Source: Comamonas testosteroni ATCC 11996 (GTDB lineage Bacteria; Pseudomonadota; Gammaproteobacteria; Burkholderiales; Burkholderiaceae_C). Taken from it: a stretch of 64,000 nucleotides of DNA. The position numbers and the translations under genes are program-made. The notes beneath the pieces were generated by a model that saw only the letters and a list, made by a program, of their open reading frames with translations, was not told the origin of the DNA and made no database searches. This document shows, piece after piece, positions 15,838 through 39,919 of this stretch. The stretch is taken from the NCBI RefSeq assembly GCF_000241525.1, contig NZ_AHIL01000041.1:124001-188000 (forward strand), given 5' to 3'. Every line of letters begins with the position of its first letter. Within the stretch, counting starts at the first letter, position 1.

Positions 15838-18176
15838 TCGGCGTCCTCCAGCTCCGTCTGGTGGAAGCAGACACGCAGGGGCTTGCAACGTGGGGCGCGC
15901 TCGATGTCTACCTCCCACGCTTCAGCACCGACCTGCGCGGCGATGGTTCCGTAATAGCCGATCCAGGGCTTTTGCTTTTTGCCGGTGGCTGACTCATTGA
16001 CCTGCACACGCGTGCCAATTGCCAGTGTTGCCCCTTCCTTCACATCAGCACTGCCTTGGCCAGCGTCCACGGCCGCAGCCTGCGCGCCAGCAGGCTGCTG
16101 TGCGTCATCGTCCGGGTAGGGGAAATCGTCCTCGATCTCGGAGGCGGGCGGCAGACCATGAGCCGCCTCGGCGGCTACAGGGGCTGCTTTGTTGCCTTGC
16201 GCTTTAGCGCCTGATATGGGTGCCTGGGCGACAGCCACAGGCGCCCCCTCGATGCCCTGCGCGGCTGCGGCCGCGCCTGATCCTTCCAACTCCTGCAACG
16301 CTTCAGCGATCTGGGCAGACGCATGCGCAGCGCTGGTTTTCGGCACTTCGCCGGCCCGCGCAGCGGGCTTCTTGCCTTTTTTGGCATTGCCTCGCCCGCC
16401 ATCACCGCCAGCGCGCGCAGCGGGGTGTTGGGGTAGATCGGCCTTTGGGGCGTCAGGTTGAGGGGTGGCAGCGGCCTTTCGGGCGGCTTCGGCCGCGCGC
16501 ATATTGGCTTTGGCCTTGGCTTTTGCGGCCTCCACGTCCACGCCGCAGGCCTCGGCCATGGCCAGCAGCTCGGTATTGGGTGCTGGTCGCCAGTCGTTCG
16601 TATCGAGGTCGTAGCGGTTCCAGAAGCTACGGTCATGCAGGGCGATGATGCAACCGGTCAGCAGGTGGGGGCTGTTCCAGTCGTTGGCAGCTTGCCTGAT
16701 GGCTTCCTTGGGGACGACCTTTCCCAGATCCAGCAGCTTGCACAGCAGCTTGGCATCGTCACCATTGATCTGCCCTGCCAGGCGCCGCGCAGCCAGACGG
16801 TTGCCGGCCTTGGCCATGGGCGTGAGGAGTAGATCGACCTCCTGTTCTTCTTGCTGTAGCCGCTTGACTATTGCCTGCAACACGTCCATGCGCCAGGCGC
16901 GTTCGTAGTCGTCCTGGGCTTGTTTTTTGGCTTCCTTCTCAGCGCGCGCAGCTTGCTCGACAGCCTCGGCCGCCAGCTTCTCCTCGGCCTCGACGTGGCC
17001 GGCCATCTGCAGCAGCTGTTGCGCCTGCTCGGGCGTCACGCAGGCAATGAGTTCCTTGGGGTTGTCTGGGTTGGTGACCATGGTGGGCTTGATGCCCGAC
17101 TGCTCCATGACCTTGGCGCCGATGGCCTTGCGCAGAGTCTTGCCCTCGATGGGGCAGTCCCGCTGGCTGTCCAGACGCTTGTAGCCAGGCACTCCGGTGA
17201 AGTCGCTGTAGTAGCTGCCGATCAGTTGCTTAGATTCCCTTTCGTCCAGCACTTCGCAGCCGCGTTCCTGGGCTTGCTTGCGCAGTTGCTCAGCGTGGGC
17301 CTGTTCCTTGTTGCGGTAGCAAGGCGGGTTTGTGCACACGTCTGCACCCTTGCTTTCTTCGTCCTGGTCGGCACCAGTGCGATGCGGGCAGGTGGTGCAT
17401 GCGCCTGCAGAAGGGCAGAGGTCTGCGTCCTTGCGGCTGAACGGGGCTTTGCGCAAGTCCAGCATGTAATTAGTCTTGACGTGGCTCTGCACATCCCGCG
17501 CACTGGGCTTCTCATCGCGGTAGTTCGTCTCCAGTGCCCAATCCAGGGCTTCGCGCTGCAGGTCAAAGGTCGCAATGCGGGCGATGGGTAGGGCGCAGCT
17601 GTAGTCCAGCTCGCCTTGGCGCATGGCATCGCGGCCCTCGGGGCACAGGTTCAGGATCTTCAGGCGGGCATAGACGTAGGCCCGGCTCTTGCCGATTTTT
17701 TCGGCCACCTGGTCGGCATTCATGCCGTTGTTGTCCATCAGCACTTGGTAGCCCTCGGCTTCCTCCAGTGCTGTTACGTCTTCGCGCTGCAGGTTCTCGA
17801 TGACCTGGGCTTCCAGCGCCTGGGCATCCGTCATGAGGCGGATCATGGCCGGAATCTCTGCCACGGCCGCTATCTGGCTGGCGCGCCAGCGACGCTCGCC
17901 ACAGACCAGCTCGTACTCGGCTGGCTGGCGTTTCTCCGCCCTGGCCCAAGCCATTTCATCGCTGATGCGCTCCACGGGGAGAGGGCGTACCAAGATGGGT
18001 TGATGCACGCCTGATGCCTTGATGCTGTCGGCCAGCTCAGCGAGCTTCTCGGGGTCGAAGTGCTTGCGGGGATTCGTCAGGCTCCGGGCGATGCTAAGCA
18101 CGGGGATATGTGCCATGCGCTCGCCAGCGCCTGGCGTGGGCAGGGCCTGGGTGACGGTGTCCTGGGTATCGGTCAT
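15834..18176 (-). CDS. Large ParB-family protein with CTPase motif and Cys-rich insert
   Basis: A 780-residue ParB/Spo0J-like protein, more than twice the length of chromosomal ParB. The N-terminal ParB domain (about 22-135) keeps the CTP-binding GERRWRA box (93-99) and an ENLQRED motif (128-134). A KorB/Spo0J-type helix-turn-helix follows (about 151-180). Cysteines 254, 260, 263, 281 and 286 form a possible zinc cluster. The rest is helical, then low-complexity Ala/Pro/Lys, then a folded-looking C-terminal domain (about 715-775). GGAG lies upstream. No ParA is encoded nearby. A role in DNA clamp loading, regulation or partition is inferred. Confidence 0.8.
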   Translation of the reverse strand: MTDTQDTVTQALPTPGAGERMAHIPVLSIARSLTNPRKHFDPEKLAELADSIKASGVHQPILVRPLPVERISDEMAWARAEKRQPAEYELVCGERRWRASQIAAVAEIPAMIRLMTDAQALEAQVIENLQREDVTALEEAEGYQVLMDNNGMNADQVAEKIGKSRAYVYARLKILNLCPEGRDAMRQGELDYSCALPIARIATFDLQREALDWALETNYRDEKPSARDVQSHVKTNYMLDLRKAPFSRKDADLCPSAGACTTCPHRTGADQDEESKGADVCTNPPCYRNKEQAHAEQLRKQAQERGCEVLDERESKQLIGSYYSDFTGVPGYKRLDSQRDCPIEGKTLRKAIGAKVMEQSGIKPTMVTNPDNPKELIACVTPEQAQQLLQMAGHVEAEEKLAAEAVEQAARAEKEAKKQAQDDYERAWRMDVLQAIVKRLQQEEQEVDLLLTPMAKAGNRLAARRLAGQINGDDAKLLCKLLDLGKVVPKEAIRQAANDWNSPHLLTGCIIALHDRSFWNRYDLDTNDWRPAPNTELLAMAEACGVDVEAAKAKAKANMRAAEAARKAAATPQPDAPKADLPQHPAARAGGDGGRGNAKKGKKPAARAGEVPKTSAAHASAQIAEALQELEGSGAAAAAQGIEGAPVAVAQAPISGAKAQGNKAAPVAAEAAHGLPPASEIEDDFPYPDDDAQQPAGAQAAAVDAGQGSADVKEGATLAIGTRVQVNESATGKKQKPWIGYYGTIAAQVGAEAWEVDIERAPRCKPLRVCFHQTELEDAE
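16013..16026. repeat. Degenerate copy of the CACGTG-core palindrome
   Basis: TGCACACGCGTGCC matches TGCACACGTGTGCA at 12 of 14 positions and lies in the 3' end of the ParB-family gene. Weakest member of the set. Confidence 0.3.
17333..17346. repeat. parS-like palindrome copy A (13/14)
   Basis: TGCACACGTCTGCA lies inside the ParB-family gene, covering its ADVCT residues. One mismatch from the palindrome TGCACACGTGTGCA. Confidence 0.55.
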
Positions 18177-18640
18177 GCTGCAGCTCCTTCAGTCCGAGCC
18201 ATCCAGTGGGCGCGCATGCGGTCCACGTCATGGATGGCATTGGTGCGCCAGTCATCGCCATGTGTCAGGTAGTGGGTCAGCATCCAGTGCAGGACGGCAG
18301 CCTGCTCCTCTTCGGCTTTGCGTGGGACGTCATGTCCACCCATGCGCAAGGCCTCTGCAAAAGTTACGCACTGAAAGCACATCAGTCCGAGGATCTTTTT
18401 CAGCTCTGCTGTAAGGGGTGGAATTACAGGTGCCGCTGCTTTTTCCGGGGGAGCCATGCCGTACAGGAACCCTTTCACTGCCGGTTGCTTGCCCAGCCAC
18501 CCCACGGCATCGATGGCCAGCGCGTGGGCTGCTGTCTCAAGGCGCATGCCGGGGCGAGGGCTTGGAATGTCCACGTGCACTTGGGCGTGTCCATCGGGCA
18601 GGTTTTCGATGACCAGGGTGATGCGATTCAGATCAGGCAT
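18173..18640 (-). CDS. Phage early protein, unknown function
   Basis: A 155-residue soluble protein. The N-terminal half begins with alternating beta strands (NRITLVIENLPDGHAQVHVD) and the C-terminal half is helical with several His and Trp (HWMLTHYLTHGDDWRTNAIH). AAGGAGG lies 7 bases upstream of ATG 18640. It overlaps the ParB-family start by 4 bases, so the pair is coupled and may act together. No family recognised. Confidence 0.7.
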   Translation of the reverse strand: MPDLNRITLVIENLPDGHAQVHVDIPSPRPGMRLETAAHALAIDAVGWLGKQPAVKGFLYGMAPPEKAAAPVIPPLTAELKKILGLMCFQCVTFAEALRMGGHDVPRKAEEEQAAVLHWMLTHYLTHGDDWRTNAIHDVDRMRAHWMARTEGAAA

Positions 18641-18986
18641 GTGCTGCCTCCTTGGGTGGGGTTGCATTGGCCTGCGTGGCGCGGCCGTGGACTTGGATGT
18701 GGCTGGACATGCCCAGCGTGGTGCGCAGCTGGGCGATGGGTGCCCAGACCGTGACGCGCATGCCTTTTTTCATGGAGCGAGCTGCACGGTCGGCATCGCC
18801 GCGCAGAGCGGCCGGGTAGACCTGCTCGGCCCGAACCGGGGCGGTGCAACTGCCGTCTGACTGCATGACCAGGCAGAGCACGGGCATGGGGGTGTTGTCA
18901 TCACCCATGGGGCGGGTGCGGACCTCAGCGTCCTGCAGCAGCACGCCGCTGAGCTGGATATGGGTGTCGGTCAATGCGTTGGGCAT
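18633..18986 (-). CDS. OB-fold-like (single-strand DNA-binding-like) phage protein
   Basis: A 117-residue, beta-rich protein. The order IQLSGVLLQDAEVRTRP, then PVLCLVMQSD, then MRVTVWAPIAQLRTTLG resembles an OB fold of the SSB/PriB type, with a disordered tail. This is a pattern-based guess. GGAG lies 7 bases before ATG 18986. The start overlaps the stop of the 49-residue gene upstream by one base and its end overlaps the next gene, so it belongs to the leftward early operon. Confidence 0.55.
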   Translation of the reverse strand: MPNALTDTHIQLSGVLLQDAEVRTRPMGDDNTPMPVLCLVMQSDGSCTAPVRAEQVYPAALRGDADRAARSMKKGMRVTVWAPIAQLRTTLGMSSHIQVHGRATQANATPPKEAAHA

Positions 18987-19135
18987 CACAGCACTCCAGC
19001 GTCAATTGCCACGCGCAGTGCGGCCAGGGCCAAAGCCACTGCACAGATTGCAGCCGAGCGAATGTAGGCCCTTCGGTTGCGTTTGAGCATGCGGGGTGTG
19101 GGTGCCCCGTCCAGTTGAATGATGGGTGTGCTCAT
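18986..19135 (-). CDS. 49-residue single-pass membrane protein
   Basis: A short gene starting ATG 19135 with GAGG 6 bases upstream. The product has a basic middle (RMLKRNRRAYIRS) followed by one hydrophobic helix (AAICAVALALAALRVAI) near the C-terminus. Its TGA overlaps the ATG of the OB-like gene by one base, so coupled translation supports reality. Function unknown. Confidence 0.6.
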   Translation of the reverse strand: MSTPIIQLDGAPTPRMLKRNRRAYIRSAAICAVALALAALRVAIDAGVL

Positions 19136-19143
19136 GTCCGACC

Positions 19144-19518
19144 TCAAAATGGATAGGGGCTGCTCTCTTCGATCAACTCGCGGACAAAGCCGGTGTACTG
19201 CTTTGCTCGGTCGTAGCTGTCATAGGCGCAGTGATTGATGGCCTCGTGCGCGTCGTCCTCAATGCGGTGGCGCAGTCGGTCGCAGGCCAGCCGGCACATC
19301 GCGTCCAGGTCTAGCGCTGGGCGTGGTGCAGCAGTCAACGGAGCAATCAGTCGAAAGACTTGGGTATCCGTCCTGTTAGGCAGATCGACGGTCATGCGGA
19401 CGGTCACTTCGGGCAATTGACGAGGGCGCAGCGCGACATCGACGGCTTGGATGTACTTCATGTCCTCCAGACCCAGCACGCGCAGCAGGGCCTTGTTGGT
19501 GTTGTGGATGGTCTTCAC
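19144..19518 (-). CDS. Phage early protein, unknown function
   Basis: A 124-residue acidic protein. I chose GTG 19518 because GGAGGG lies 7 bases upstream and the GTG overlaps the previous stop by 4 bases; the longer frame to 19758 reads through an overlapping gene. The N-terminal half is beta-rich (EVTVRMTVDLPNRT), the C-terminal half helical. No family recognised. Confidence 0.65.
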   Translation of the reverse strand: MKTIHNTNKALLRVLGLEDMKYIQAVDVALRPRQLPEVTVRMTVDLPNRTDTQVFRLIAPLTAAPRPALDLDAMCRLACDRLRHRIEDDAHEAINHCAYDSYDRAKQYTGFVRELIEESSPYPF

Positions 19519-19652
19519 GCTGCGGCCCTCCGTGCGCTGATGGGATGGGCATTGCCGAAGCGAGCCATAGCACGCGCGATGGCATCGCAGCCGCCCGTGG
19601 CCAGGGTGGTGCGGCGCTTGCGACCACAGGTGACGATGTAGCGGGTCAGCAT
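19515..19652 (-). CDS. 45-residue basic phage protein
   Basis: A small Arg-rich protein starting ATG 19652 with GGAGG 6 bases upstream. It overlaps both neighbours (its stop with GTG 19518, its start with the stop of the 107-residue gene), as expected for genuine coupled genes in this operon. Function unknown; the many Arg residues could suit nucleic-acid contact. Confidence 0.55.
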   Translation of the reverse strand: MLTRYIVTCGRKRRTTLATGGCDAIARAMARFGNAHPISARRAAA

Positions 19653-19969
19653 GTGGGGCCTCCATTTGGAAAATGACGTGCCCGAAACGCTTCCTCCCAG
19701 AGCTGGCATGCGAGTTTGGCGGCTTTTTCAACGCCCAAGTGCAGCAGCAAGCCGCCATCTATGGCGTGCTTCTCGTCTGATTTGGCCGAGAATTCGAGTG
19801 CAGTGCAGGCATCAAGAATCGCGTTGCGGTACGGTCCAGGGCGCAGTGCATCGCGCTTCTTTTGCAGCAATGCGAAAGACTCGCGGCCTTGCCATGCGCA
19901 TTTGAGCCAGATGAGGTTTTCCGTGAACCGCTTTGATGTGCACACGTGTGCACTGTGTGTGTTTGACAT
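19646..19969 (-). CDS. First gene of leftward early operon, unknown function
   Basis: A 107-residue mainly helical protein. ATG 19969 has GGAG 7 bases upstream; ATG 19987 has none. It is the first gene after the leftward promoter and OL operators, so it would be the earliest leftward product after derepression. Its codons 7-11 (AHVCT) carry an exact copy of the palindrome TGCACACGTGTGCA. No family recognised. Confidence 0.65.
   Translation of the reverse strand: MSNTHSAHVCTSKRFTENLIWLKCAWQGRESFALLQKKRDALRPGPYRNAILDACTALEFSAKSDEKHAIDGGLLLHLGVEKAAKLACQLWEEAFRARHFPNGGPTC
19939..19952. repeat. parS-like palindrome copy B (exact)
   Basis: TGCACACGTGTGCA, extended to a 16-bp palindrome by flanking G and C. 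Inside the 5' end of the first leftward gene. Confidence 0.6.
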
Positions 19970-20008
19970 TCCCCAACTCCTCGACATGTCTATGAAGGCA
20001 ATGTTTGC

Positions 20009-20022
20009 ATCACTCGTGTGAT
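20009..20022. promoter_or_regulatory. Operator OL-a
   Basis: ATCACTCGTGTGAT, 11 of 12 arm positions of the inverted consensus ATCACT-NN-AGTGAT, between the leftward promoter and its first gene. Confidence 0.75.
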
Positions 20023-20036
20023 TTGATGCGGCGCCA

Positions 20037-20066
20037 ATAATCACACGAGTGATCTTTGCTTGTCAA
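20037..20066 (-). promoter_or_regulatory. Leftward early promoter PL
   Basis: Read leftward: TTGACA (complement of 20061-20066), an 18-bp spacer, then GATTAT (complement of 20037-20042). Operator OL-b fills the spacer and OL-c overlaps the -35, so repressor binding would directly exclude RNA polymerase. Confidence 0.75.
20040..20053. promoter_or_regulatory. Operator OL-b
   Basis: ATCACACGAGTGAT, placed between -35 and -10 of PL. It matches the same half-sites as the operators beside the repressor gene. Confidence 0.78.
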
Positions 20067-20078
20067 CACACTAGTGAT
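20065..20078. promoter_or_regulatory. Operator OL-c (weaker)
   Basis: AACACACTAGTGAT has one perfect half-site (AGTGAT) and a degenerate partner, overlapping the -35 of PL. Confidence 0.6.
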
Positions 20079-20883: not shown

Positions 20884-20901
20884 GAGTGGTGAGGGCAGTT
20901 C

Positions 20902-21567
20902 TCAGGGAAGTCGACCAAAGGATGCGTCAACCACTACGCCAACGATGGCGTCGCCTTCAAGCATTTTTAAGAATCGGTGTGGCCAGTCGGGGTTGATGGC
21001 TTCAAGATAAGGCTCGCCATCGACAAGCGTGTATAGCTTAAAAGTTGCCTCGTGCTCTGCCTCGCGGCGCGCAATGACAAACTGACCAGGCTTCGCCTCT
21101 AGATGAGGGTTGACATGTAGCAGCATCCCATCAGGGAACGAATGTGGACCAGACTTTGAGGTCATCGAGCTTCCACGAACTCGCAGAAGATACCCGCATT
21201 CGCCAAGGTCGTATGGTGAGTATCCATATTCTTCGGCTTGCCAAGCTTCAACGCCCTCGCAGCTGCCTGTCCATTTTCCAGCTTGCACCAACGACACGAT
21301 TGGATATCTCCCTTTTCCCTTGATATTCGGTCCGGGCTCGATATTACTGGATATATACAGGTGCTTGTCAATGCCTGTTTGAAGATAATCTGGGGTTGTG
21401 CCCAAAATATCTGCAATTTTTACGATGCTGGCTCCATATCCGCGCAAATCGCGTTCGATATTGCCGATGCCGCCCTGGCTGGAGAAGCCAGCTTCTGTAG
21501 CAAGTTGAGCCTGCGTGAGGCCCTTGGCTTGTCGCAAGCGCTTGAGTCGTTGGCCTAGTGTTTCCAT
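20902..21567 (-). CDS. CI-type repressor with LexA-like S24 peptidase domain
   Basis: A 221-residue lysogeny repressor. Residues 6-62 form an XRE helix-turn-helix (LTQAQLATEAGFSSQGGIGN). The C-terminal domain (about 88-215) is the S24 autoprotease: the nucleophile Ser lies in VRGSSMTSKSGPHSFPDG and the general-base Lys probably in ATFKLYT. It should dimerise on the ATCACT-NN-AGTGAT operators and self-cleave with RecA after DNA damage, linking induction to SOS. It is divergent from the Cro-like gene, with OR between them. Confidence 0.92.
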   Translation of the reverse strand: METLGQRLKRLRQAKGLTQAQLATEAGFSSQGGIGNIERDLRGYGASIVKIADILGTTPDYLQTGIDKHLYISSNIEPGPNIKGKGRYPIVSLVQAGKWTGSCEGVEAWQAEEYGYSPYDLGECGYLLRVRGSSMTSKSGPHSFPDGMLLHVNPHLEAKPGQFVIARREAEHEATFKLYTLVDGEPYLEAINPDWPHRFLKMLEGDAIVGVVVDASFGRLP

Positions 21568-21578
21568 AGTTAGATTTC

Positions 21579-21592
21579 ATCACTTGTGTGAA
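21579..21592. promoter_or_regulatory. Operator OR-a
   Basis: ATCACTTGTGTGAA, close to the repressor start. A half-site ATCACTTTGGTATG continues directly after it (21592-21605). Confidence 0.7.
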
Positions 21593-21613
21593 TCACTTTG
21601 GTATGTTTTGTTG

Positions 21614-21641
21614 TTGCTGGATCTATCACTTGAGTGATAAT
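21614..21641 (+). promoter_or_regulatory. Rightward early promoter PR
   Basis: TTGCTG (21614-21619), a 16-bp spacer and GATAAT (21636-21641). Operator OR-b overlaps the -10, so repressor shuts off the Cro-like gene and replication genes. The transcript would start within a few bases of ATG 21650, leaving almost no leader. Confidence 0.6.
21625..21638. promoter_or_regulatory. Operator OR-b
   Basis: ATCACTTGAGTGAT has perfectly inverted half-sites (ATCACT / AGTGAT) and is the best match of the five. Confidence 0.8.
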
Positions 21642-21649
21642 GCGAGGCA

Positions 21650-22917: not shown

Positions 22918-22997
22918 GGAATGGTTGTAGTGCACGTCGCTGGTGTTAGGGACGCCGGCGTGTCGATGTTCTGTCAGGGATGGCAAGGGGGTGCTGC

Positions 22998-25742
22998 ATG
23001 AACCAGCACCGCGAACCTTTGCCGCCCATCCAGTTCGGCCCGCTGCGTGAGGCGCTGCTGGCCAATGCAGAGAATCTGGTGCCGCGCTGGCTGCCTGGTG
23101 GGCAGTTTGACGGGCATGAGTACCGGTGCGCCGACTTGAGCGGCGGGCATGGTCACAGCTGCAGCGTCAATGTGAAGTCGGGCAGCTGGGGCGACTTTGC
23201 CACGGGCGACCAGGGCAATGACCTGATAGGCCTCTATGCCGCAATCCATGACCTGAGTAATGCCAAGGCTGCCATTCAGGTGGCGCGTGAGGAAAAGCTG
23301 GAGAGTGTGGCGGGGCTGGTGAAGCAGGCCAGCGGTGCAGCTGTGGTGCCCGCTGCCAACCCGCGCCCAGCACCCGCGCCCAAAGCTGACAAGACTCGCG
23401 ACCAGGAGGAGTGGAGCACGCTGCGGCCGGTGCCAGGCAATGCGCAACAGCCGACGTTTTGGCACAAGCATCGCCAGTTGGAAGACCTGGAGCACAAAGC
23501 TGAATACCGCGTGGGCGCAGATTTGCACGGTTTTGTGATGCGGTACCGCACCAGCGATGGCGGCAAGGATACTTTGCCTCACACGTTTTGCAGTAGTGCC
23601 CGCGATGGGACTCGTGCCTGGAAGTGGAAGACCTGGGACGAGCCTCGGCCGTTGTATTTCCCCAGTCACGAGTTGCCCAATGGGCGCACGGTCATTCTGG
23701 TTGAGGGTGAGCTGAAGGCGGACGTGCTGCAGCAATTGCTGGATGCGGTAGCCCCAGGCATTTACTGCGTGGCCAGCTGGCCCAGTGGCAGCAAGGCGTG
23801 GAAGAAAACAGGTTGGGACTGGCTTGCCGGGGCCACGGTGCTGCTGTGGCCTGACTGCGATGCGCAGCGTGAGAGGTTGACCAAGGCTGAGCAGGCCGAG
23901 GTGAAGGACAAGCCCGAGGCGAAGGAAGCCTTGCAACTGACAAAGGCTTTGCTGCCGGCACATAAGCAGCCGGGCATGGGCGCGATGCTGGGCATTGGTG
24001 CCCATCTGGTGGCTGAGCAAGGCTGCACTGTGCAGCTGTTGCCCATTCCTGAGCCAGGCGCGAAGCCCAGCGGCTGGGACTGCAAGGACGCCATCAAGGA
24101 TGAAGGCTGGACGGGCGAGGATGTGCTGGCCTTCTTTGGCCGGGCGCAGCCTTTGCCTGTCGTCGATGCGTCTGCAGACGCGCCTGTTCAGGCTGATGCC
24201 CCTGCGGCAGCGGCCGGTAACGGCGGCAAGCCCCCAAAACGCGATTCCCCCGTTGGCACAGACGGCGGCGGGTCTGAGCCGCCATCGGGCGACCCCGACG
24301 ACCGGGACTGGCTGTGGCAGTTCTACGACCGCAGGAAGCACCGCTGGGATCTGCGTCGTAGCCTGGTGGTGGCCGCTTTGCAGAATGATCCTCAGCTCAA
24401 GGGCTGCGTGGCATTCAATGAGCTGAGCAAGAGCACCAGCGTGCGCAAGGCCTGGCCGTGGCCGCATGCCAAAGCGGGTGGGCTTGAGGCCGATAGCACC
24501 TTGCTGCTGGGCATGTACTTGAATGATGTGTATGGCGTGGGCGATGTCTCTACCCAGAACATCAAGGACGGGATTGCTACGGTGGCCTATACGGAGCGCT
24601 ATCACCCGGTGCGTGAATGGCTGTCGGGCCTGGAGTGGGATGGAAAGCCGCGCCTGGACAAATGGCTTATCCATGTGCTGGGTGAGTCCCCCGAGACGCT
24701 GAAGGCGCCAATGAATGAATATCTGGCGCTTGTCGGCCGCTACTGGGTGATGGGCATGGTCTGGCGGGTGATGGAGCCCGGTTGCAAGTTTGACTATATG
24801 CCTGTGCTTGAGGGCAAGGGTGGCTTGCGCAAGTCCACCTTGGGTCGCTTGTTGGCGGGCCGGCCTGAGTGGTTCAGCGACACCAAGTTTGACCTGAGCA
24901 GGGGCAAAGAAGCCTATGAACAGGTGCGCGGCAAGTGGCTGTATGAGATTCAGGAAATGTCAAGCTTCTCCAAGGCGGACGTGAATGACATCAAGGCCTT
25001 TGTGTCGTCGATGGTGGACAACTACCGGGTGGCCTACGGTGACCAGGCGCAGGAGTTCCCGCGCCAGTGTGTGCTGGTGGGCTCGACCAACGATAAGAAG
25101 TATCTGCGCGACCGCACGGGCAATCGTCGTTTCTGGCCTGTGCCGGTGCGCCACAAGATCAAGACCGAGTGGATTGAGAAGTGGCGCGACCAGCTGATGG
25201 CCGAGGCCTATGCGCTCTATCAGAAGGGAGGCGTGCGCTACACGCCGACCGAGGAGGAAGAAGAGCGCCTGTTTGTACCGATGCAGGAAAGCCGCCAGCA
25301 GGAGTCGGCCGTCGATGCCGAGCTGTTCAAGCTGCTGACCCGTCCTGCCACTGCTGATGCGCGATTCATCAACAGCGATGCCGAACGTATCGCGATCAAT
25401 ACCCTGATCAAGGCCCTAGGCGTTGACATTGGCAAGGCTACCTCTGTCTTGAAGGGGCAGATCGAGGCCTGGCTTGAAAGCAATGGCTGGCAGTTCAAAG
25501 GCCGCCAGCGCGTCAACGGCCAGCTGGAGTCGGGGGTGTACTTCCGCCCCGATGTGTGGCCACCGGCCGAGGAGGACGCTGCGTCCGCGTCATGGACCCA
25601 GCAATCGGATGTGGCTGCTTCACCTGAAGCCGCCTCTGCTGGCGGAACGACCACCTTTGAGGCCCCACCTTTACCTGCTGGCATTGGCGCAGCTGGTGGC
25701 GGCGGATATGGGCCTATGGACGGAGACGATGAACCGTTCTAA
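22998..25742 (+). CDS. VapE-type primase/helicase replication protein
   Basis: A 914-residue replication protein. The N-terminal third has a primase/zinc-like beginning and a TOPRIM-like segment (ILVEGELKADVLQQLL and VLLWPDCDAQ, about residues 225-290). A disordered Ala/Pro linker follows, then a VapE/superfamily-3-type ATPase with Walker A EGKGGLRKST (Lys612), Walker B-like WLYEIQEMSSF, sensor VGSTNDKKYLRD and arginine-finger motif RTGNRRFWPV. It should unwind and prime phage DNA. ATG 22998 has AAGGGGG upstream; the start at 22980 lacks one. Confidence 0.88.
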   Translation: MNQHREPLPPIQFGPLREALLANAENLVPRWLPGGQFDGHEYRCADLSGGHGHSCSVNVKSGSWGDFATGDQGNDLIGLYAAIHDLSNAKAAIQVAREEKLESVAGLVKQASGAAVVPAANPRPAPAPKADKTRDQEEWSTLRPVPGNAQQPTFWHKHRQLEDLEHKAEYRVGADLHGFVMRYRTSDGGKDTLPHTFCSSARDGTRAWKWKTWDEPRPLYFPSHELPNGRTVILVEGELKADVLQQLLDAVAPGIYCVASWPSGSKAWKKTGWDWLAGATVLLWPDCDAQRERLTKAEQAEVKDKPEAKEALQLTKALLPAHKQPGMGAMLGIGAHLVAEQGCTVQLLPIPEPGAKPSGWDCKDAIKDEGWTGEDVLAFFGRAQPLPVVDASADAPVQADAPAAAAGNGGKPPKRDSPVGTDGGGSEPPSGDPDDRDWLWQFYDRRKHRWDLRRSLVVAALQNDPQLKGCVAFNELSKSTSVRKAWPWPHAKAGGLEADSTLLLGMYLNDVYGVGDVSTQNIKDGIATVAYTERYHPVREWLSGLEWDGKPRLDKWLIHVLGESPETLKAPMNEYLALVGRYWVMGMVWRVMEPGCKFDYMPVLEGKGGLRKSTLGRLLAGRPEWFSDTKFDLSRGKEAYEQVRGKWLYEIQEMSSFSKADVNDIKAFVSSMVDNYRVAYGDQAQEFPRQCVLVGSTNDKKYLRDRTGNRRFWPVPVRHKIKTEWIEKWRDQLMAEAYALYQKGGVRYTPTEEEEERLFVPMQESRQQESAVDAELFKLLTRPATADARFINSDAERIAINTLIKALGVDIGKATSVLKGQIEAWLESNGWQFKGRQRVNGQLESGVYFRPDVWPPAEEDAASASWTQQSDVAASPEAASAGGTTTFEAPPLPAGIGAAGGGGYGPMDGDDEPF

Positions 25743-26114: not shown

Positions 26115-26459
26115 ATGAACAAAGATGTTAGGGCATCAGTCAAAGTGGGTGGTCAGGGCCAGTGGTCTGATCATGAGAAGTGGTTGATTGAGCAGGGGCA
26201 GCAGCGCATCAAGACTTTGATGCCTGAGGTGTACAAGACCATTTGCCGGTATGCAGAGAAGGACTCGAATGTGTGGCGCATCGTGCGCTTGGGCCTGGTT
26301 GGTCGGCCCGATCAGTTCTGGGCCTGCGAGGCTGGGCACGTGGCCGGCGCACCCTTCACTCAATTCAAGCGGGCTGTCGAGGTGTCGCGCTTGATTGCCC
26401 GCTTCGGTTGTGCACACGTGTGCATGATCGCGGGCCATGGTGATCTGGGAGGAACCTGA
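26115..26459 (+). CDS. Phage protein upstream of late regulator, unknown function
   Basis: A 114-residue protein from ATG 26115 (AGGGTGA upstream). It contains HEKWLIEQGQQRIKTLMPEV and then a helical body. It lies directly before the Q-like gene with a 2-base gap, so it is probably co-expressed. Its codons for CAHVCM carry an exact TGCACACGTGTGCA palindrome. No family recognised. Confidence 0.65.
   Translation: MNKDVRASVKVGGQGQWSDHEKWLIEQGQQRIKTLMPEVYKTICRYAEKDSNVWRIVRLGLVGRPDQFWACEAGHVAGAPFTQFKRAVEVSRLIARFGCAHVCMIAGHGDLGGT
26411..26424. repeat. parS-like palindrome copy C (exact)
   Basis: TGCACACGTGTGCA inside the gene at 26115-26459, read in the frame giving AHVC. Confidence 0.6.
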
Positions 26460-26461: not shown

Positions 26462-26887
26462 ATGGCGCGGATCGAGCACATCAAGCGCCGCCTGGATAAC
26501 TGGGCGCTGTGGCGGGCACGGCGCGACAACAACGGGCTGGGCTTCCCATCGCAGAACATCCTGGCCGTGTGGGGTGCCAGTGTTGAGCAGCCGCAAAAGA
26601 ACCGCGAGTCAGTCATGCCGGTGCTGCACCTGGAGGCTGAGGAGACGGATAAGGCGGTGGAGTCGTTGAAGGGTGGCAAGTCCCATCTGTATGACACGCT
26701 GTACTGCATCTATGTCCGTGACCTCGGTATCACGGGCACGGCCCGCCGTATCGGCCGTGCACCATCCACGGTGCATGCGCAGCTGGACGCAGCAGACCGC
26801 GCCATTGATGCCTGGTTGGTGGCGTTGGCTCAAGAGAAAGAGCGCAGACGCTCCCACATGCAGCCCCAAGGGAGTTTTTCCACATAG
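26462..26887 (+). CDS. Late-gene regulator (antiterminator Q-like)
   Basis: A 141-residue basic protein with a C-terminal sigma-70-region-4-like helix-turn-helix (YDTLYCIYVRDLGITGTARR, then IGRAPSTVHAQLDAADRAI). Such proteins sit just before the late operon in many phages and activate or antiterminate late transcription (Q/ArpU type). The position, followed by a terminator and then the packaging genes, supports that role. The exact mechanism is inferred. Confidence 0.7.
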   Translation: MARIEHIKRRLDNWALWRARRDNNGLGFPSQNILAVWGASVEQPQKNRESVMPVLHLEAEETDKAVESLKGGKSHLYDTLYCIYVRDLGITGTARRIGRAPSTVHAQLDAADRAIDAWLVALAQEKERRRSHMQPQGSFST

Positions 26888-31935: not shown

Positions 31936-33345
31936 ATGCAACTCACTCGTAAACATCTCACGGTCGCATTCCTGGCCGGCATGGCGGTCCTGGCCGTCGC
32001 ATCTCTGGCTGGCATTCCGCTGGTCTCCCACGACACATGGGCCGCTCTGGCAGCCGCTGGAGCCATGCCTATGGCTCTGACGGGCGAGACTGGCGGCGAC
32101 ATCCAAAAGGCCTTGGGCCAACTCACCGATGTGGCTAAGGCCGCTCAGCAGGCGGTCGCCGATATGAAGAAGGCGCATACCGAGCTGGATGGCCGAGTCG
32201 GCAAAATGCACGAAGAACTCAAGGCTGCTGGCGTTGACGCCACAACCAAGGCTGCATTCCAGGACGCGGTCCAGAAGGTGGACAAGGTTGAGAAGTCGGT
32301 CGAAAAGCTCACCGAAGAGCTGACCGACCTGGCCCGCAAATCTGCCAACCTGCTCGGCGGTGGCGGTCAGCAGCGCAAGAGCCTGGGCCAACTGGCCGGC
32401 GAATCCGATGTCTGCAAGTCCTATCGCGGCGGCACGGCTGAGCTCATTACCATGAATGCCCCGCTGTTCGGCAAGGCGGCTGTGACCAGCTCAGCAGCCA
32501 GCGCGGGCGCGTTCATCGAACCCGATCGCCGCGGCCTGCTGGTGGATCCGGCTATTCCGCTCACTGTGCGTGACCTCTTTATGGCGGTCTCGATCTCCAC
32601 CAACGCGGTGGAGTGGGTTCAGGAGAAGCTGTTCACCAACAATGCCGGTCCCCAAAACGGTGAAGGCACTGCCAAAAACGAATCGGGCATTACGTTTGAG
32701 AAGAAGTCGAGCTCGGTCGAAACCATCGCACACTGGATCCCTATCAGCCGCCAAGTGCTAGCCGATGTGCCGCAGCTGCAAGGCCTGATCGATGGTCGTA
32801 TGCGCGAAGGCCTGAAGATCAAGGAAGATGAAGATCTGCTCTTCGGTGACGGGCTGAATGGTCATCTCTTGGGTCTCGTTCCCCAGGCCACGGACTACAG
32901 TGCTGCGGGCCTGCCCGCTCCTGCGGCTGGCGGTCCGGCAACAACAATGCTCGACCACCTACGCTGGTCTCATCTGCAGGTGGCCAAGGCGCTGTACCCG
33001 GCCACCTTCTCGGTGCTGAGCCTGGAGGACTGGGCCACCATCCAGCTGCTGAAGACCAATGACGGTGCCTACATCTTTGGTACACCCACCGATGGTGCCG
33101 CGCCGCGTGTGTGGGGCAAACGTGTGGTGGAAAGCTACGGTCTGCCCACAGGTCAGTTTCTCAGTGGCAGCGGCTTCGCAGCCACCATCTACGACCGTGA
33201 GGAAGTCACTGTGCGTGTGGCAGAGCAGCACGCTGACTTCTTCATCAAGAACATGGTGGCCCTGCTGGTGGAAGAGCGCTTGGCCTTCACTGTCGAGCGC
33301 CCCAAGGCCATTGTTGCCGGCACATTCCCTGCACCTGCTCCCTGA
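31936..33345 (+). CDS. HK97-fold major capsid protein with delta domain
   Basis: A 469-residue capsid precursor. A coiled-coil scaffold-like delta domain occupies about residues 55-150, then the HK97 fold begins near residue 170 (GAFIEPDRRGLLVDPA) and runs through ISRQVLADVPQLQGLIDGRM. The adjacent protease should remove the delta domain. Oddly, residues 8-30 are a hydrophobic, signal-like stretch (LTVAFLAGMAVLAVASLAG) ahead of the delta domain, which is unusual for a capsid protein. No strong ribosome site precedes ATG 31936. Confidence 0.92.
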   Translation: MQLTRKHLTVAFLAGMAVLAVASLAGIPLVSHDTWAALAAAGAMPMALTGETGGDIQKALGQLTDVAKAAQQAVADMKKAHTELDGRVGKMHEELKAAGVDATTKAAFQDAVQKVDKVEKSVEKLTEELTDLARKSANLLGGGGQQRKSLGQLAGESDVCKSYRGGTAELITMNAPLFGKAAVTSSAASAGAFIEPDRRGLLVDPAIPLTVRDLFMAVSISTNAVEWVQEKLFTNNAGPQNGEGTAKNESGITFEKKSSSVETIAHWIPISRQVLADVPQLQGLIDGRMREGLKIKEDEDLLFGDGLNGHLLGLVPQATDYSAAGLPAPAAGGPATTMLDHLRWSHLQVAKALYPATFSVLSLEDWATIQLLKTNDGAYIFGTPTDGAAPRVWGKRVVESYGLPTGQFLSGSGFAATIYDREEVTVRVAEQHADFFIKNMVALLVEERLAFTVERPKAIVAGTFPAPAP

Positions 33346-33416: not shown

Positions 33417-33800
33417 ATGGAATATGAGATCGGAAAGACGTTCAAAAGCGGCGACAAGCTGCTGAAGCCTGGTGATCCTTTGCCTGCCGCCATGGACAAG
33501 ATCACTCTGGACCACTACAAGCGCCACGGCATGGTGCGCGAAGTCAAGCCGCAGGAATCCAAGCCCGACGCATCGAAACGTCGCACGACAACACCGCGCC
33601 AGAAGGAAATCAAGTCTGCAGGCCCAGGTGATAGCAATCAATCCGCAGGTCAGTCTGATCTGTCTGCTGGTAATGAACAGGTGCGCAGCGGCAGTGATGG
33701 CCAGGCAGACGGCACTGTGCACACGTCTGCACAGGAACCCGGCGACTCTTCTGCTGCCGCCCCTGCATCTGATTCGAGCGCCGCTCAACCCGAGGCTTGA
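33417..33800 (+). CDS. Head-region protein with disordered tail
   Basis: A 127-residue protein. Residues 1-50 look folded (EYEIGKTFKSGDKLLKPGDPLP); the remainder is low-complexity Ser/Ala/Gln/Pro. ATG 33417 has GGAG 6 bases upstream. Its position between capsid and connector suggests a head decoration or completion protein. Codons for VHTSA carry the one-mismatch palindrome at 33718-33731. Confidence 0.6.
   Translation: MEYEIGKTFKSGDKLLKPGDPLPAAMDKITLDHYKRHGMVREVKPQESKPDASKRRTTTPRQKEIKSAGPGDSNQSAGQSDLSAGNEQVRSGSDGQADGTVHTSAQEPGDSSAAAPASDSSAAQPEA
33718..33731. repeat. parS-like palindrome copy D (13/14)
   Basis: TGCACACGTCTGCA, identical to copy A, inside the low-complexity tail of the gene at 33417-33800. 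Confidence 0.55.
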
Positions 33801-34162: not shown

Positions 34163-34164
34163 CC

Positions 34165-35601: not shown

Positions 35602-35649
35602 TTTTTTCACCCATCCCGCCACGCGCGGAAACCACCGAAAGGAACCGCC

Positions 35650-36150
35650 ATGCCTATGTTGCCCCAAGGCACGCAGCTCTATGCGCTCATGCCCAAAGAC
35701 GCAGGCGCTGCTGAAGTTATCAAAGTCGCTTGCGCGCTGACCGTCGATACCGGCGAGGACGAGCGTGACGAGCACGATGACACTTGCCTGGAAGAGATGG
35801 AGTCGAAATCCACCTTTCCCGGGTTGACTACCCCTGGCGATGCCACGTTCACGGTGCGCATCGATCCCGCTGATCCGAGCCATGTCAAGCTCTGGTCCTT
35901 GTACAAGGCGCGCACCAAAGTGCTCTGGGCCATGGGCTGGGGCGACGGCGTGGACATCGATCCCACTGGCCCCGCCGCTGCTAATGAAGACTGGGAGCTG
36001 CCTGAGACACGTACCTGGAGTACCTGGCGCGGCCATATCTCGGGCATGAACTTCACGGGCTTCGAAGCAGGCGGGGCACCCGTGCAGGGCTCTGTCAAGA
36101 TCAAGCGCTCCACTGCGGCTGAATGGCTGGTGAAGGGCCGCGCACCATGA
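35650..36150 (+). CDS. Major tail tube protein
   Basis: A 166-residue tail tube subunit with [17 protein letters not shown] at the N-terminus, [20 protein letters not shown] in the middle, and beta-rich [16 protein letters not shown]. It follows the tail terminator and precedes the two tail chaperone frames, as expected. AAAGGAA lies 8 bases upstream. Its stop overlaps the chaperone start (ATGA). Confidence 0.85.
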
Positions 36151-36605
36151 ATATTCAGGACTTGATGAACCGTGGTGGCTTTGTCGATTCCGCGCCCGTC
36201 CACAAGGAAATCAAGTGGCTGGATAAGGACGGCACGATCCACATCGACCATATTTGGGTCGTGCGTCAGCCTTTCGGCGTGATGGAAAGTTTCGCAGGCA
36301 AAGGGGAGCCTGACCGCAGTCAGGGTGCCAAGATGATCAGCCTCTCTGTCCGTTTGGGCATTGAAAAGCCCTCTGAGCAGCTGACTTATGACCAAGCATA
36401 CAGCTTGTGGCCCTCGCTGGCCTGGGCCATGGTGGTCGCTATCAATGAGGTCAATGCCCCAAAAAACTCTCCGCCGCCGATGAATTCCTCCACGAGCTCG
36501 TCCTCGCAGGCATCGGCGGCTGGACAGTTGCGCAAGCCAAGGCGAACCTCAGCTACGAAGAAGTCCTTGCCTGGCAAGAGTACCGGCGGCTCCACGGCCC
36601 TTTGA
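36147..36605 (+). CDS. Tail assembly chaperone, short form (gpG-like)
   Basis: A 152-residue tail assembly chaperone read in the zero frame. Residues up to about 105 form the folded part; beyond the slippery site the zero-frame tail is Ser/Pro/Lys low-complexity ([15 protein letters not shown]), as is common after a G-type frameshift. ATG 36147 overlaps the tube stop and has AAGGG upstream. It coats the tape measure together with the longer frameshifted form. Confidence 0.82.
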
Positions 36606-36781
36606 CTCTTGCCAAGCACATCGCCAATGCTGGGGCCACGGTGTCGCTCACTGTCAGCAGCACTGTGCCCCGCAAGCGTGGCAGCAAGTCACCCGCGTTC
36701 TCTGACTTCCTTCCTCAGTGGGGGGAGCGGTCGGCGAGCGGTGCAGTGCTGACGCTGGAGGAGGCAATGAAGCTTCTGTGA
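36147..36781 (+). CDS. Tail assembly chaperone, -1 frameshift product (gpG-T-like)
   Basis: A 211-residue fusion made by -1 slippage at A AAA AAC (36461-36467). Translation joins 36147-36467 to 36467-36781. The new frame stays open for 104 codons with a protein-like sequence ([18 protein letters not shown], then [19 protein letters not shown]) and ends 48 bp before the tape-measure gene. The T-like domain contacts the tail tube protein and recruits it to the tape measure. The T frame has no start of its own in a sensible place, which supports frameshifting. Confidence 0.85.
36461..36467 (+). promoter_or_regulatory. Programmed -1 frameshift site A AAA AAC
   Basis: In the zero frame the codons are CCA AAA AAC, so the heptamer is exactly X XXY YYZ. 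It lies 46 codons before the zero-frame stop. No downstream pseudoknot was worked out. Confidence 0.88.
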
Positions 36782-36829
36782 TTTCCTATATGCCGCCTTC
36801 GAGCGGCGATCCTTATGGGCGCTTGAAAC

Positions 36830-39451
36830 ATGGCACGGCAACTTGGCACACTGACAATCGATCTGATCGCCAAAATCGGTGGCTTTGTCAAAGGCATGAC
36901 CGATGCTGAGCGCGCCGCAGATCGCAAGTCCCGAGAGATGGAGCAAAAGCTCAAGGCTCGGGCTCAAAGCGTAGAAAAGGCATGGGCCGGTATTGGCACG
37001 GTACTCACTGCAACCATCGCGGGAATCAGCGTTACAGGGGCGGTGCAAGGGGTAGTCAACCTGGCCAAGGAAACGGCCAATGCTGCCAAAGAGGTTGAGA
37101 CGCTGTCGCGTATCTCTGGAACGTCTACCACTCGCTTTCAAGAGTTGGCTTATGGTGCCCAGCAGGTTGGCGTGAGCGGCGAGAAAATGGCCGACATCTT
37201 CAAGGATGTGCAGGACAAGTTTGGCGATTTTGCGCAGACCGGCGGCGGCGAAATGAAGGACTTCTTCGAGAAGATCGCTCCCAAGGTCGGTGTGACTATC
37301 GACCAGTTCCGCAAACTCTCCGGTGCTGATGCCTTGCAGCTGTACTACAACAGTTTGGCCAAGGCCAACCTGTCCCAGCAGGACATGGTTTTCTACCTGG
37401 AGGCTGTGGCCAATGATGCTACGGCCTTGCAGCCTTTGCTGCAAAACAACGGCAAAGCCTGGAATGAGTTGGCTGCCGAGGCGCAAAAATATGGCTTGGT
37501 GCTCAATCAGGACGCGCTGGCGGCCAGTGCTGCATATCGTGATGAGACACGAAAGCTTGAAGCCAATCTGCAAGGCATCAAGAATGCTGTGGCTGTGGAG
37601 GTGCTCCCGGCGCTTACTCAGCTCAATAGCCAACTAGCTGATGAAAGCACGCGGCAGGCCTTTGCAACGCTCATGAGCTGGGTTGTCGATCTGACCAATG
37701 TGGTAGTGAAAGCTTCCGCCAATATCGTCGCTTTCATCAACACGAAAAACAAGCTTGGTGCGCTTCTTGGAACGGATGACTTCGGCAAGATGAAGGCTTC
37801 CGCATCGGAGGCCTCTGCCCATGTCGAACGTTTGACCGGCACACTGGAGCGTCACCAGGAAGCTCTCAGCAGAGATCCGGGGAATGCGCGGCTGCAGCGT
37901 AATGTAAGCAAGACGCGCGATCTGCTTTTTCAGGCGCAGAACGCGGCAGTGGATGCATCGGATGCCCTAAAGAACTGGGCAAATCAAAAGGATGTTCAAG
38001 TCCCTAAGGTTGAGCTCCCGGAGCCTCCGAAGCCCAAAGGACCCTATTCCCCGGTAACGCCGCCGAAACCTGATGGAGGCAAAGGCAAGTCCCAAGCCGA
38101 AAAAGATCAGGAGGCCGCAGAAAAGTTCTTGCAGTCCTTGCGAGATCAGGCTTTCAAGATTGAGGAGAGATCGGCATACGAGCAGCTCTTCTACGATATC
38201 CAAAGCAAAAGCTTGAAGCTCTCAGAGTCTCAGCTCAGCAAAGCGACTGGCCTTGCAACGGCCATCGATATGTCTAAGGAGGCAGAGCGCCAGCGTGCGG
38301 TCGAAGTGGAGCGCAGCAATGTGCTCTATGAGGCGCAGAACCGTCTGATCGCCAAAGAGCAGCAACTGCAGTTGGAGCTTCTGACCTACGGGATGGGTGA
38401 TAAGTCTGCCGCAGAGCTGCACGAAAAGATCTCGCTGATGCAGCAGCACCAGGCAGAGCTGAGAAAGCTGCAGCAAGACCAGGCCAGCGCAGTCATCGGT
38501 GCGGATACTGAGAAAGAGCGTCAACGCATCCAGGCCGCGTTTGCTGAGCGTATTCGGATCACGCAGACCGCCCAGCAGCAGGAGCTGCAGCTGTATGAAG
38601 ACTTCCTGCAGCAAAAGCGCGAGCGCGAGGGAAATTGGCTGCTCGGTGCTCAGTCGGGTCTCGCAACGTATCTGGAAAACGCCCGCGACATGTACTCGCA
38701 GGCGCAGGGTATCGCATCCAGGGCCTTCACTGGCATGGAGGACATGCTGGTCAACTTCGTCAAGACCGGCAAGATGGATGTGGGGAGCCTGTTCGCTTCA
38801 ATTGGCGAAGAAGTGCTACGCATGCTGATCCGCATGGGCATCCAGATGGTGGCCAATAAGCTGCTGGGCGATACGTTGCAGGCGGCTGGTGTAGCCACTT
38901 CTCTGGCTGCTGGTGCTGCGACTGCTGCAGCTTGGGCGCCGGCTGCTGCCATGGCTTCGCTCGCATCGTTTGGTGCGAATGCGGCGCCTGCCAGTGCGGG
39001 CATTGCCAGCACGGTGGCCCTGAGCCAAGGTCTGGCCATGATCCCCGGCTTTGACCAGGGTGGCTATACCGGTCCTGGTGCACGGCTGCAGATCGCGGGC
39101 TGGGTGCATGCGGGCGAGGGCGTTCTCAACCAGGACGACATGGCCGCGCTCGGTGGGCCTGCAGCATTCGAGGCATTCCGTCGCAGCCTGCACGGCATGC
39201 CGGGCTATGCCAGCGGGGGCGTTGTTGGTGCGCCGCGTATTGCAACGCGTGCTGACTATGCGGCGCAGCTTGCAGGCAGCGCACCCATCGTCAATGTCAT
39301 CGAGGACGCCAGCAAGGCCGGCCAGATCGAGCAGACGCAAAACGCTGATGGCAGCTACAGCACGAACGTGTTTGTTCGCAATATCCGCAGCGGCGGCGAG
39401 GAAGCAACTGCGCTGGAAACAACTTACGGGCTGACGCGCCGAGGACGATAG
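36830..39451 (+). CDS. Tail tape measure protein
   Basis: An 873-residue protein that sets tail length. The N-terminal part is LGTLTIDLIAKIGGFVKGM with long helices. Hydrophobic segments follow at about residues 58-80 and near 680-720 (VATSLAAGAATAAAWAPAAA), with extended coiled coil between about 400 and 600. The C-terminal FDQGGYTGPG and GWVHAGEGVLNQ are classical tape-measure motifs. At roughly 1.5 angstrom per residue the tail would be near 130 nm. No strong ribosome site is seen. Confidence 0.93.
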   Translation: MARQLGTLTIDLIAKIGGFVKGMTDAERAADRKSREMEQKLKARAQSVEKAWAGIGTVLTATIAGISVTGAVQGVVNLAKETANAAKEVETLSRISGTSTTRFQELAYGAQQVGVSGEKMADIFKDVQDKFGDFAQTGGGEMKDFFEKIAPKVGVTIDQFRKLSGADALQLYYNSLAKANLSQQDMVFYLEAVANDATALQPLLQNNGKAWNELAAEAQKYGLVLNQDALAASAAYRDETRKLEANLQGIKNAVAVEVLPALTQLNSQLADESTRQAFATLMSWVVDLTNVVVKASANIVAFINTKNKLGALLGTDDFGKMKASASEASAHVERLTGTLERHQEALSRDPGNARLQRNVSKTRDLLFQAQNAAVDASDALKNWANQKDVQVPKVELPEPPKPKGPYSPVTPPKPDGGKGKSQAEKDQEAAEKFLQSLRDQAFKIEERSAYEQLFYDIQSKSLKLSESQLSKATGLATAIDMSKEAERQRAVEVERSNVLYEAQNRLIAKEQQLQLELLTYGMGDKSAAELHEKISLMQQHQAELRKLQQDQASAVIGADTEKERQRIQAAFAERIRITQTAQQQELQLYEDFLQQKREREGNWLLGAQSGLATYLENARDMYSQAQGIASRAFTGMEDMLVNFVKTGKMDVGSLFASIGEEVLRMLIRMGIQMVANKLLGDTLQAAGVATSLAAGAATAAAWAPAAAMASLASFGANAAPASAGIASTVALSQGLAMIPGFDQGGYTGPGARLQIAGWVHAGEGVLNQDDMAALGGPAAFEAFRRSLHGMPGYASGGVVGAPRIATRADYAAQLAGSAPIVNVIEDASKAGQIEQTQNADGSYSTNVFVRNIRSGGEEATALETTYGLTRRGR

Positions 39452-39919
39452 ATGGCATTCACTTCAAACATTGACTGGCCGCAGGGCTTCCCCTGCGTGC
39501 TGCGTGATGGGCATACAACCCGACACGTCAAGCCATTTGTGCGAACCCCTATGGCATCGGGGCGGTCTCGGCAGCGCCGCAAATTTAAGAGTGTGCCGAG
39601 TATGCACACGTGTGCATGGCTGATGACGGAGGCGCAAGCACTGTCCTTTGAGGCGTGGTTTGTTGAGACGCTGATCGATGGTACGGAGTGGTTCAACATG
39701 CCGCTCAGGACGCCCATGGGGCCGGGGAAGCTGCTTTGCCGATTCGCGGACATGTATGAAGGCCCGGATTTGGTGGGGATCGACCGCTGGCAGATCTCCG
39801 CTCCGATTGAGGTGTGGGCGCGGCCGCTGCTGCCGCCTGGCTGGGGCTTGCTGCCGGAGTTGGTGATCGGCTCCAGCATCATCGACCGGGCGGTGAATCA
39901 AGAATGGCCGGAGGGGTAG
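39452..39919 (+). CDS. Distal/minor tail protein, unknown family
   Basis: A 155-residue protein starting one base after the tape-measure stop. It has many Trp/Phe and a C-terminal beta region (RWQISAPIEVWARPLLPPGW). In this position lambdoid phages encode minor tail proteins such as M; homology is not claimed. Codons for MHTCA carry an exact palindrome. Confidence 0.65.
   Translation: MAFTSNIDWPQGFPCVLRDGHTTRHVKPFVRTPMASGRSRQRRKFKSVPSMHTCAWLMTEAQALSFEAWFVETLIDGTEWFNMPLRTPMGPGKLLCRFADMYEGPDLVGIDRWQISAPIEVWARPLLPPGWGLLPELVIGSSIIDRAVNQEWPEG
39603..39616. repeat. parS-like palindrome copy E (exact)
   Basis: TGCACACGTGTGCA, extended to 16 bp by flanking A and T. Read in the frame MHTCA, different from copies B and C. 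Confidence 0.6.

Follow-up and report, generated by a model that had tools for sequence, protein, structure and literature searches.

The stretch of DNA described here, referred to as the window, comprises 64,000 nucleotides of Comamonas testosteroni ATCC 11996 (contig NZ_AHIL01000041.1, positions 124,001 to 188,000) and contains a prophage that encodes a ParB-family protein of 780 amino acids (aa). A short palindrome, TGCACACGTGTGCA, is dispersed through this prophage; its complete form is a 16-bp word, GTRCASRCGYSTGYAC, with a varying centre, which is paired with the ParB-family protein. In our judgement these palindromes are likely to be the recognition sites of a ParA-less, KorB-like cytidine triphosphate (CTP) clamp that would load at dispersed sites on the phage DNA. 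Computation supports the pairing of site and protein and the selection on the site at the DNA level, and finds no ParA match on the prophage contig. By analogy with characterized relatives, binding, CTP use and clamp sliding are rather probable, and a KorB-like regulatory role is proposed tentatively. Judged by sequence, the ParB–word pair is also carried by many other viruses, and variation in the word accompanies variation in the protein.

The ParB-family protein and its palindromic word

By its domains (Table 1) and sequence boxes, the prophage protein is assigned to the ParB/Spo0J CTPase-clamp superfamily. The CTP-binding boxes are present, including GERR and EN.QR, and strict patterns of our own making match boxes I, II, and III in 61, 60, and 62 of 75 distinct family proteins. 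The nearest solved relatives, by sequence and by N-terminal fold, are ParB, Noc, and KorB chains. A GERR-type CTPase box and a KorB/Spo0J-like helix-turn-helix (HTH), both named in the first-pass annotation of this DNA, are upheld by Pfam, by the boxes, and by the PDB matches. Beyond the cysteine cluster the protein has a long low-confidence stretch followed by a small, predicted beta-rich C-terminal part (residues 723-778). The structure model of the full-length protein has a mean predicted local distance difference test score (pLDDT) of 58.8, with better N-terminal domains; since it is weak overall, no claim is built on its C-terminal half. The host's own ParB is a separate protein, encoded on contig C62 beside a ParA-family match and two canonical parS, and the host parS differs from the prophage word. 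Chromosomal parS was rejected as a target of the prophage ParB, as its exact pattern occurs at two places, both beside the host parAB.

Exact copies of TGCACACGTGTGCA lie at 19939-19952, 26411-26424, and 39603-39616, and the one-mismatch form TGCACACGTCTGCA lies at 17333-17346 and 33718-33731, all five as first annotated. The weak copy previously placed at 16013 is in fact at 16003-16016 and has two mismatches (TGCACACGCGTGCC). It was dropped as a real site and is probably due to chance, being missing at up to two mismatches from six non-identical close relatives (L129-L134) and seen, of seven close relatives, in the identical one (L128) alone. At up to two mismatches the window holds six matches against 0.57 ± 0.71 expected, and none of 100 shuffles gives six. 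A count over the 63 contigs of the genome (5.41 Mb) gives exactly five places that match with at most one mismatch; every one lies on the prophage contig, and reversing the pattern as a control gives no match at the same stringency. The palindrome is hence confined to the prophage as had been stated, and an equal frequency in the host chromosome is contradicted by zero such copies outside the prophage contig. The two reading frames described earlier, AHVC- and HTCA-type, are found as A-D/H-V-C at three sites and H-T-C/S-A at two (the starts of the open reading frames (ORFs) being mechanical). In the tail-gene site at 39602-39617 both outermost bases deviate from the consensus.

The copy inside parB was examined in 68 genes, 63 of which align at the site, where the codons specify [GS]-A-D/G-V-C-T and cover one position of the cysteine cluster. 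The protein permits the word in 36 of the 63 genes, and the word is exact in 34 of these 36, where the codon use of each gene would predict 0.24; the figures after thinning are 30 of 32 against 0.21 at 90% identity and 18 of 20 against 0.14 at 70% identity. The in-gene copy is not universal because the protein disallows the word in 27 of the 63. The alanine codon of the site is identical in 0.86 of pairs, compared with at most 0.69 at 43 other alanine positions (62 of the 68 sequences), and the threonine codon, the third base of which lies outside the word, is identical in 0.24 of pairs against a median of 0.51. These synonymous-position tests support selection of the in-parB copy as DNA rather than as protein, and at this copy they bear out the first-pass suggestion.

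Table 1. Features of the prophage region, in window coordinates or, where stated, in residues of the 780-aa ParB-family protein.
Feature	Position	Strand	Basis or remark
Tyrosine integrase with arm DNA-binding domain	12762..14093	+	Pfam; longest frame
ParB-family gene, 780 aa	15834..18176	-	Pfam ParB_N 5e-25, HTH_ParB 3.6e-15
ParB_N CTPase fold	residues 20-130		alignments, Pfam
HTH_ParB	residues 132-218		
Cysteine cluster	C260/C263/C281/C286		
Weak copy, two mismatches	16003..16016		probably chance
Site inside parB	17332..17347		GTGCACACGTCTGCAC; exact match to GTRCASRCGYSTGYAC; encodes G-A-D-V-C-T
Site near start of leftward (ParB) operon	19938..19953		GTGCACACGTGTGCAC; similar map position in relatives
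Promoter-like pair TTGACA, 18, GATTAT, ahead of leftward operon	20037..20066	-	
CI-like S24 repressor	20902..21567	-	Pfam
VapE-like primase/helicase	22980..25742	+	Pfam, PHROGs
Site between VapE gene and terminase genes	26410..26425		GTGCACACGTGTGCAT; 36 bases ahead of Q-like gene
Q-like gene	26462-26887		
Major head protein	31936..33345	+	PHROGs
Site in ORF downstream of major capsid gene	33717..33732		GTGCACACGTCTGCAC; 371 bases past capsid gene
Site in minor tail gene	39602..39617		ATGCACACGTGTGCAT; same place occupied in G029 and G021

Association of the word with large ParB proteins

Dispersed exact or one-mismatch copies are present in all seven IMG/VR relatives of the prophage ParB (54-100% identity) and in the sequenced phages Aval and VarioGold, which is the outcome of a motif count in related prophages suggested earlier as a check. 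A scan of a collection of genome contigs gave 17 stretches, none of which was confirmed as a relative. The surroundings of large ParB genes were taken from related genomes and searched de novo for near-palindromes. The same word as in the window was recovered in near relatives, GTGCAGACGTCTGCAC in G072 and VarioGold, GTGCAGGCGTCTGCAC in G080, and GTACAG[AG]CGCCTGTAC in G034 and G020; no convincing word emerged for G017, G063, G074 or, alone, G051. G017 is likely a remnant, since ParB and a TerL fragment alone matched phage queries. In the Gordonia phage Dogfish, which has a ParB-like gene, the search gave GC-rich clusters only (6 against a Markov best of at most 4, and 8 against at most 7); barely above the Markov best, these were not counted as a word. 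The union pattern GTRCASRCGYSTGYAC is exact in 16 of 19 ParB regions, with at least two copies in 12 of the 19, and Markov controls, ten per region, have means of 0.0-0.1. The site centres in relatives are GACGTC, GGCGTC, or GGCGCC, and CACGTG, formerly regarded as an element in common with parS, was accordingly given up as a common core.

That the repeats arise from chance, base composition, or protein-coding constraint has a vanishingly small probability. The in-parB copy does encode a conserved stretch with a cysteine-cluster position, as a coding origin would have it, but this explanation is refuted by the shuffles, the Markov controls, the genome-wide counts, and the synonymous tests, and some sites in Aval and VarioGold lie between annotated genes.

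Across genomes, the exact 14-mer occurs in 10 of 149 related genomes, including all five best-scoring genomes with a large ParB, where copies lie on the ParB contig. A large ParB is defined here as one scoring at least 183 bits with profile A2 (chromosomal ParBs reach at most 149), a threshold set after seeing the data. By this definition, at least three exact generic 16-bp sites are present in 11 of 18 large-ParB genomes and in none of the 131 others (Fisher 2e-12); at least three lie on the ParB contig itself in 10 of the 18, with some copies elsewhere in the genome. One or two generic copies are also found in other genomes, as is the reversed control pattern in some. The 14-mer was also used to pick 49 viral records; at least two copies are carried by 20 of the 21 that have ParB and by 9 of the 28 that do not (p 5e-6). 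The strongest association evidence is a prospective test in which viral records were picked by DNA alone: of those chosen solely by GTGCAGACGTCTGCAC with a length of 30 kb or more, 36 of 40 encode a large ParB (open frames of 526-920 aa; A2 profile E 1e-133 to 1e-44), and of those chosen by GTACAGRCGYCTGTAC, 7 of 10 do. For a rough sense of the background, tblastn at 1e-5 with the window ParB matches 90 of 50,697 INPHARED phage records; because INPHARED is a different collection and tblastn is less sensitive, significance derived from this figure should not be taken literally.

The recognition helix of the window protein keeps G-K-S-R (residues 162-165, equivalent to Caulobacter 170-173). Caulobacter ParB contacts parS through Q162, N178, and R204 (PMC7383237), and a manual mapping from the alignment places A154, A170, and L196 at the equivalent positions of the window protein. 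A change of the third base of the word from G to A accompanies a different recognition helix: the GTG-arm proteins mostly have Rx[YH][VI]YxRLK, the four GTA-arm proteins examined have RxHV[YF]E[ST]LR, and G051 combines a GTA-type helix with a mixed site. Helix and site thus differ together, in the direction expected for a reader and its site, which in these few proteins suggests a matched pair. The predicted pairs are the window protein with GTGCASACGTSTGCAC and a G034-type protein with GTACAGRCGYCTGTAC.

Could another phage protein read the palindrome, with ParB merely linked to it? ParB-less viral records with several copies exist, and one record, G156, holds twenty near-exact copies together with a ParB_N protein that lacks an A2 profile match. 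Yet ParB is the sole detectable common gene in regions otherwise unmatched to the window prophage. Among 10 regions examined, those of G020, G051, and G058 are matched by no window-prophage ORF other than ParB (tblastn, 1e-6), and in G034 the single further match is antisense to parB; despite this, G020 and G034 each have three exact generic sites, and G051 and G058 one each. Of these, G020 is a phage that has terminase, portal, and tail families of its own. The site also differs where ParB differs, and the operator-like palindromes found next to the window repressor are not this word. A separate reader is hence considered very unlikely. The link between the palindrome and the prophage's own ParB, as first annotated, is strongly supported by prophage restriction, co-occurrence in DNA-picked phages, the joint difference of helix and site, and DNA-level selection; from sequence, the clamp very probably recognizes the palindromic word.

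Several records are of interest in themselves. In G156 (a viral record of 27 kb, L224-L225) the copies are exact or near matches to TTGCACACGTGTGCAA, mostly with TTGCA outer bases, and several appear by eye to lie just upstream of ribosome-binding sites, perhaps as a separate operator system. In G059, which lacks a large ParB, two palindromes stand nearly in tandem (13067-13095 of L202). G037 (C1:4224083, 4227523) and G032 (L200-L201), where no large ParB was found, likewise hold generic sites or palindromes in clusters, perhaps from phages with parB lost or with another reader. In MZ361826 (Hydrogenophilus phage vB_LmoS_C996) the ParB match overlaps an internalin-like annotation, and the record is perhaps mislabelled.

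Proposed clamp action and alternative roles

In the proposed mechanism, a ParB dimer would bind the 16-bp word, close as a CTP-bound clamp, depart from the site, and slide along the phage DNA. Loading would take place at about five places, one within parB, one where the parB operon begins, one ahead of the Q-like late regulator, one close to the capsid gene, and one among the tail genes. ATCAC-n-GTGAT palindromes at 20009, 20040 and, with one mismatch, 20065 overlap or flank the promoter-like pair of the leftward operon, and others lie near 21579-21638, by the repressor start. As the leftward promoter region carries such repressor-operator-like palindromes, ParB would be made once the repressor is lost, mainly after induction or on infection. 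The promoter-like pair has one match in the region against 1.5 expected by shuffling and is not above chance on its own; the site at 19938-19953 lies 84-99 bp downstream of its -10-like hexamer. Loaded at these places along the map, the clamp may dampen the early operon and tune early-to-late expression like RK2 KorB, with coating or organizing of the phage DNA as a close alternative role.

The places of the sites recur among relatives, namely inside parB, in the repressor–parB interval, in the VapE–terminase interval, directly after the capsid gene, and in the tail genes, although not every phage carries every one. The capsid-adjacent site lies 8-32 bases downstream in five relatives (Aval, VarioGold, G029, G021, and G004), the distance being taken from the gene or, alternatively, from where the tblastn match ends, and is kept in G029, G021, and G004 even though their capsid proteins have 37-38% identity to the best query.

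The same pair may instead have as its main job the coating, compacting, or shielding of replicating phage DNA in lytic growth, with secondary effects on transcription, a possibility that we regard as real yet doubtful. It is consistent with the location of parB in the leftward operon behind the region with repressor-operator-like palindromes, the SSB-like (single-stranded DNA-binding) and nucleotide kinase genes among the same-strand genes of VarioGold, the spread of sites across early and late regions, many inside genes, and the absence of a ParA match on the prophage contig. However, two sites adjoin regulatory points, the operon start and the Q-like gene, as for a regulator; there is no general even spacing, and protection by ParB is conjectural. 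More broadly, one may speculate that a widespread class of ParA-less phage ParB clamps, with their own site sets that often include one in parB, loads onto the phage DNA in lytic growth and forms a chromatin there, which would set expression from early to late and would shield or organize the genome as it replicates.

A number of observations weigh against the clamp reading or limit it. Several sites lie inside genes, and promoter regulation is a proposal. The regular spacing of copies in the earlier description was not general: p values for evenness are 0.012 for VarioGold, 0.38 for Aval, and 0.30 for the Comamonas circle, and with one of three tested phages even, spacing was discarded as evidence for a clamp. 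At the in-parB copy, the five-codon window of the site tops all 279 only narrowly (0.76 vs 0.75), and within it the conservation of the codons for Asp and Cys is unexceptional. The GTA-type helix is known from few proteins, where shared ancestry is possible. The generic site is absent from three of the 19 ParB regions (G017, G063, and G074) and single in four, and the 19-region count is not independent because the generic pattern was built from those regions. At one word length or at both, the de novo clusters of G034, G020, and G061 do not exceed their best Markov counterpart, and therefore the word there is recognized by its likeness to the others. Two or more copies are present in the nine ParB-less viral records mentioned above and in G032, G037, G038, and G059, which have no large ParB; since some ParB-less records use other outer bases, a near-identical core may have another reader. 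In one of the nine, G152, the site flanks are common to ParB-bearing relatives, and the record may be a fragment lacking parB.

True partition, in which the phage would persist as a circular plasmid segregated by ParB and the sites, perhaps with a host ParA, is improbable. It is kept alive by a complete family member, NZ_CP083453 of Comamonas odontotermitis WLL, a circular replicon of 36,925 bp that is catalogued as a plasmid, encodes an integrase, and has no annotated ParA or replication initiator. Aphanizomenon phage Yong-DA (ON073792), annotated with ParA and ParB, likewise has five dispersed copies of a similar word, GTTCAGACGTCTGAAC, one of them inside parB; unlike the prophage, it is annotated with a replication protein as well and has a short ParB. 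Although labelled a phage, ON073792 resembles a ParA-ParB replicon. Partition is nevertheless disfavoured because no ParA was found: a search with PF13614 (ParA-type) gave five matches in the genome and none on the prophage contig, other ParA-type families not being searched, and no ParA is annotated in Aval, VarioGold, or the circular member, VarioGold also having a 98-aa P-loop ATPase that was left untested. The ParA-binding motif (L/F/I)G(K/R)G(L/F/I), as defined in PMC12704722, is present in 0 of 75 distinct family proteins in the parts available, so that neither a nearby ParA by PF13614 nor this motif places the protein in ParABS. In addition, family members carry an integrase, and the sites are dispersed, not clustered.

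Among known systems, RK2 KorB with its OB operators (PMC11790492) has in common with the prophage protein the ParB CTPase fold and HTH, and 16-bp sites some of which are far from promoters; solved KorB chains match the prophage ParB by sequence and fold. Several dispersed operators on its own replicon, as for KorB, are present here as candidate sites. In contrast to KorB, the prophage ParB has a cysteine cluster and a long extension and is phage-borne; KorB represses promoters with its partner KorA, for which no counterpart was identified here, no search having been aimed at one, and repression by the prophage ParB would be by analogy only. Chromosomal ParB-parS and Noc with its binding site NBS (PMC7383237) share a 16-bp perfect or near-perfect palindrome and the G-K-S-R of the HTH, whereas the prophage word has GTRCA arms rather than TGTTT or TATTT, is dispersed, and goes with a protein lacking the ParA-binding motif. 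For the Q-K-K-R residues of Noc the window ParB has R165, R171, N176, and S193, and its site differs from NBS. The best NCBIfam match to the N-terminal part, PRTRC ParB TIGR03734, scores 140.4 bits against a cut-off of 278.6. Cluster O mycobacteriophages carry many dispersed dyad-symmetric copies of TGTTCGGNNNCCGAACA and encode a ParB-like protein (PMC4351075); their palindrome is different in sequence and has a 3-bp spacer, with 34 copies in Corndog, and these phages have no integrase. The accessible part of that article predicts an unnamed dimeric binding protein, argues for a role other than transcription initiation, and does not link the palindrome to the ParB-like protein. Stoperators are asymmetric and oriented with transcription (PMC4351075), while the present sites are palindromic or nearly so.

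Searches of open-licence papers, preprints excluded, found no published description of the pairing of ParB and palindrome. The accessible parts of PMC9658991 and PMC11541004 do not describe it, the latter having ParB in its references alone, and orphan prophage ParB proteins are catalogued in PMC12704722 without naming of their DNA targets in the part available. The word hence offers a concrete and testable target for a large group of orphan phage ParBs, supplies several naturally occurring versions of both the site and the recognition helix, and, for phages such as those of Cluster O, indicates what type of protein may read their dispersed palindromes.

Layout of the prophage

The prophage extends from the integrase to about 49 kb and has repressor, CII-like, VapE-like, Q-like, terminase, head, and tail genes (Pfam, PHROGs). 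A comparison of 12001-13100 with the window beyond 44000 gave no common stretch of at least 16 bp that could serve as attachment (att) sites, and the exact prophage ends were not found; a search of the window for tRNA and tmRNA genes gave none. Near the right end, at 46656-48644, an acyltransferase-3 domain is joined to an SGNH protein, a candidate lysogenic-conversion gene for the modification of surface sugars.

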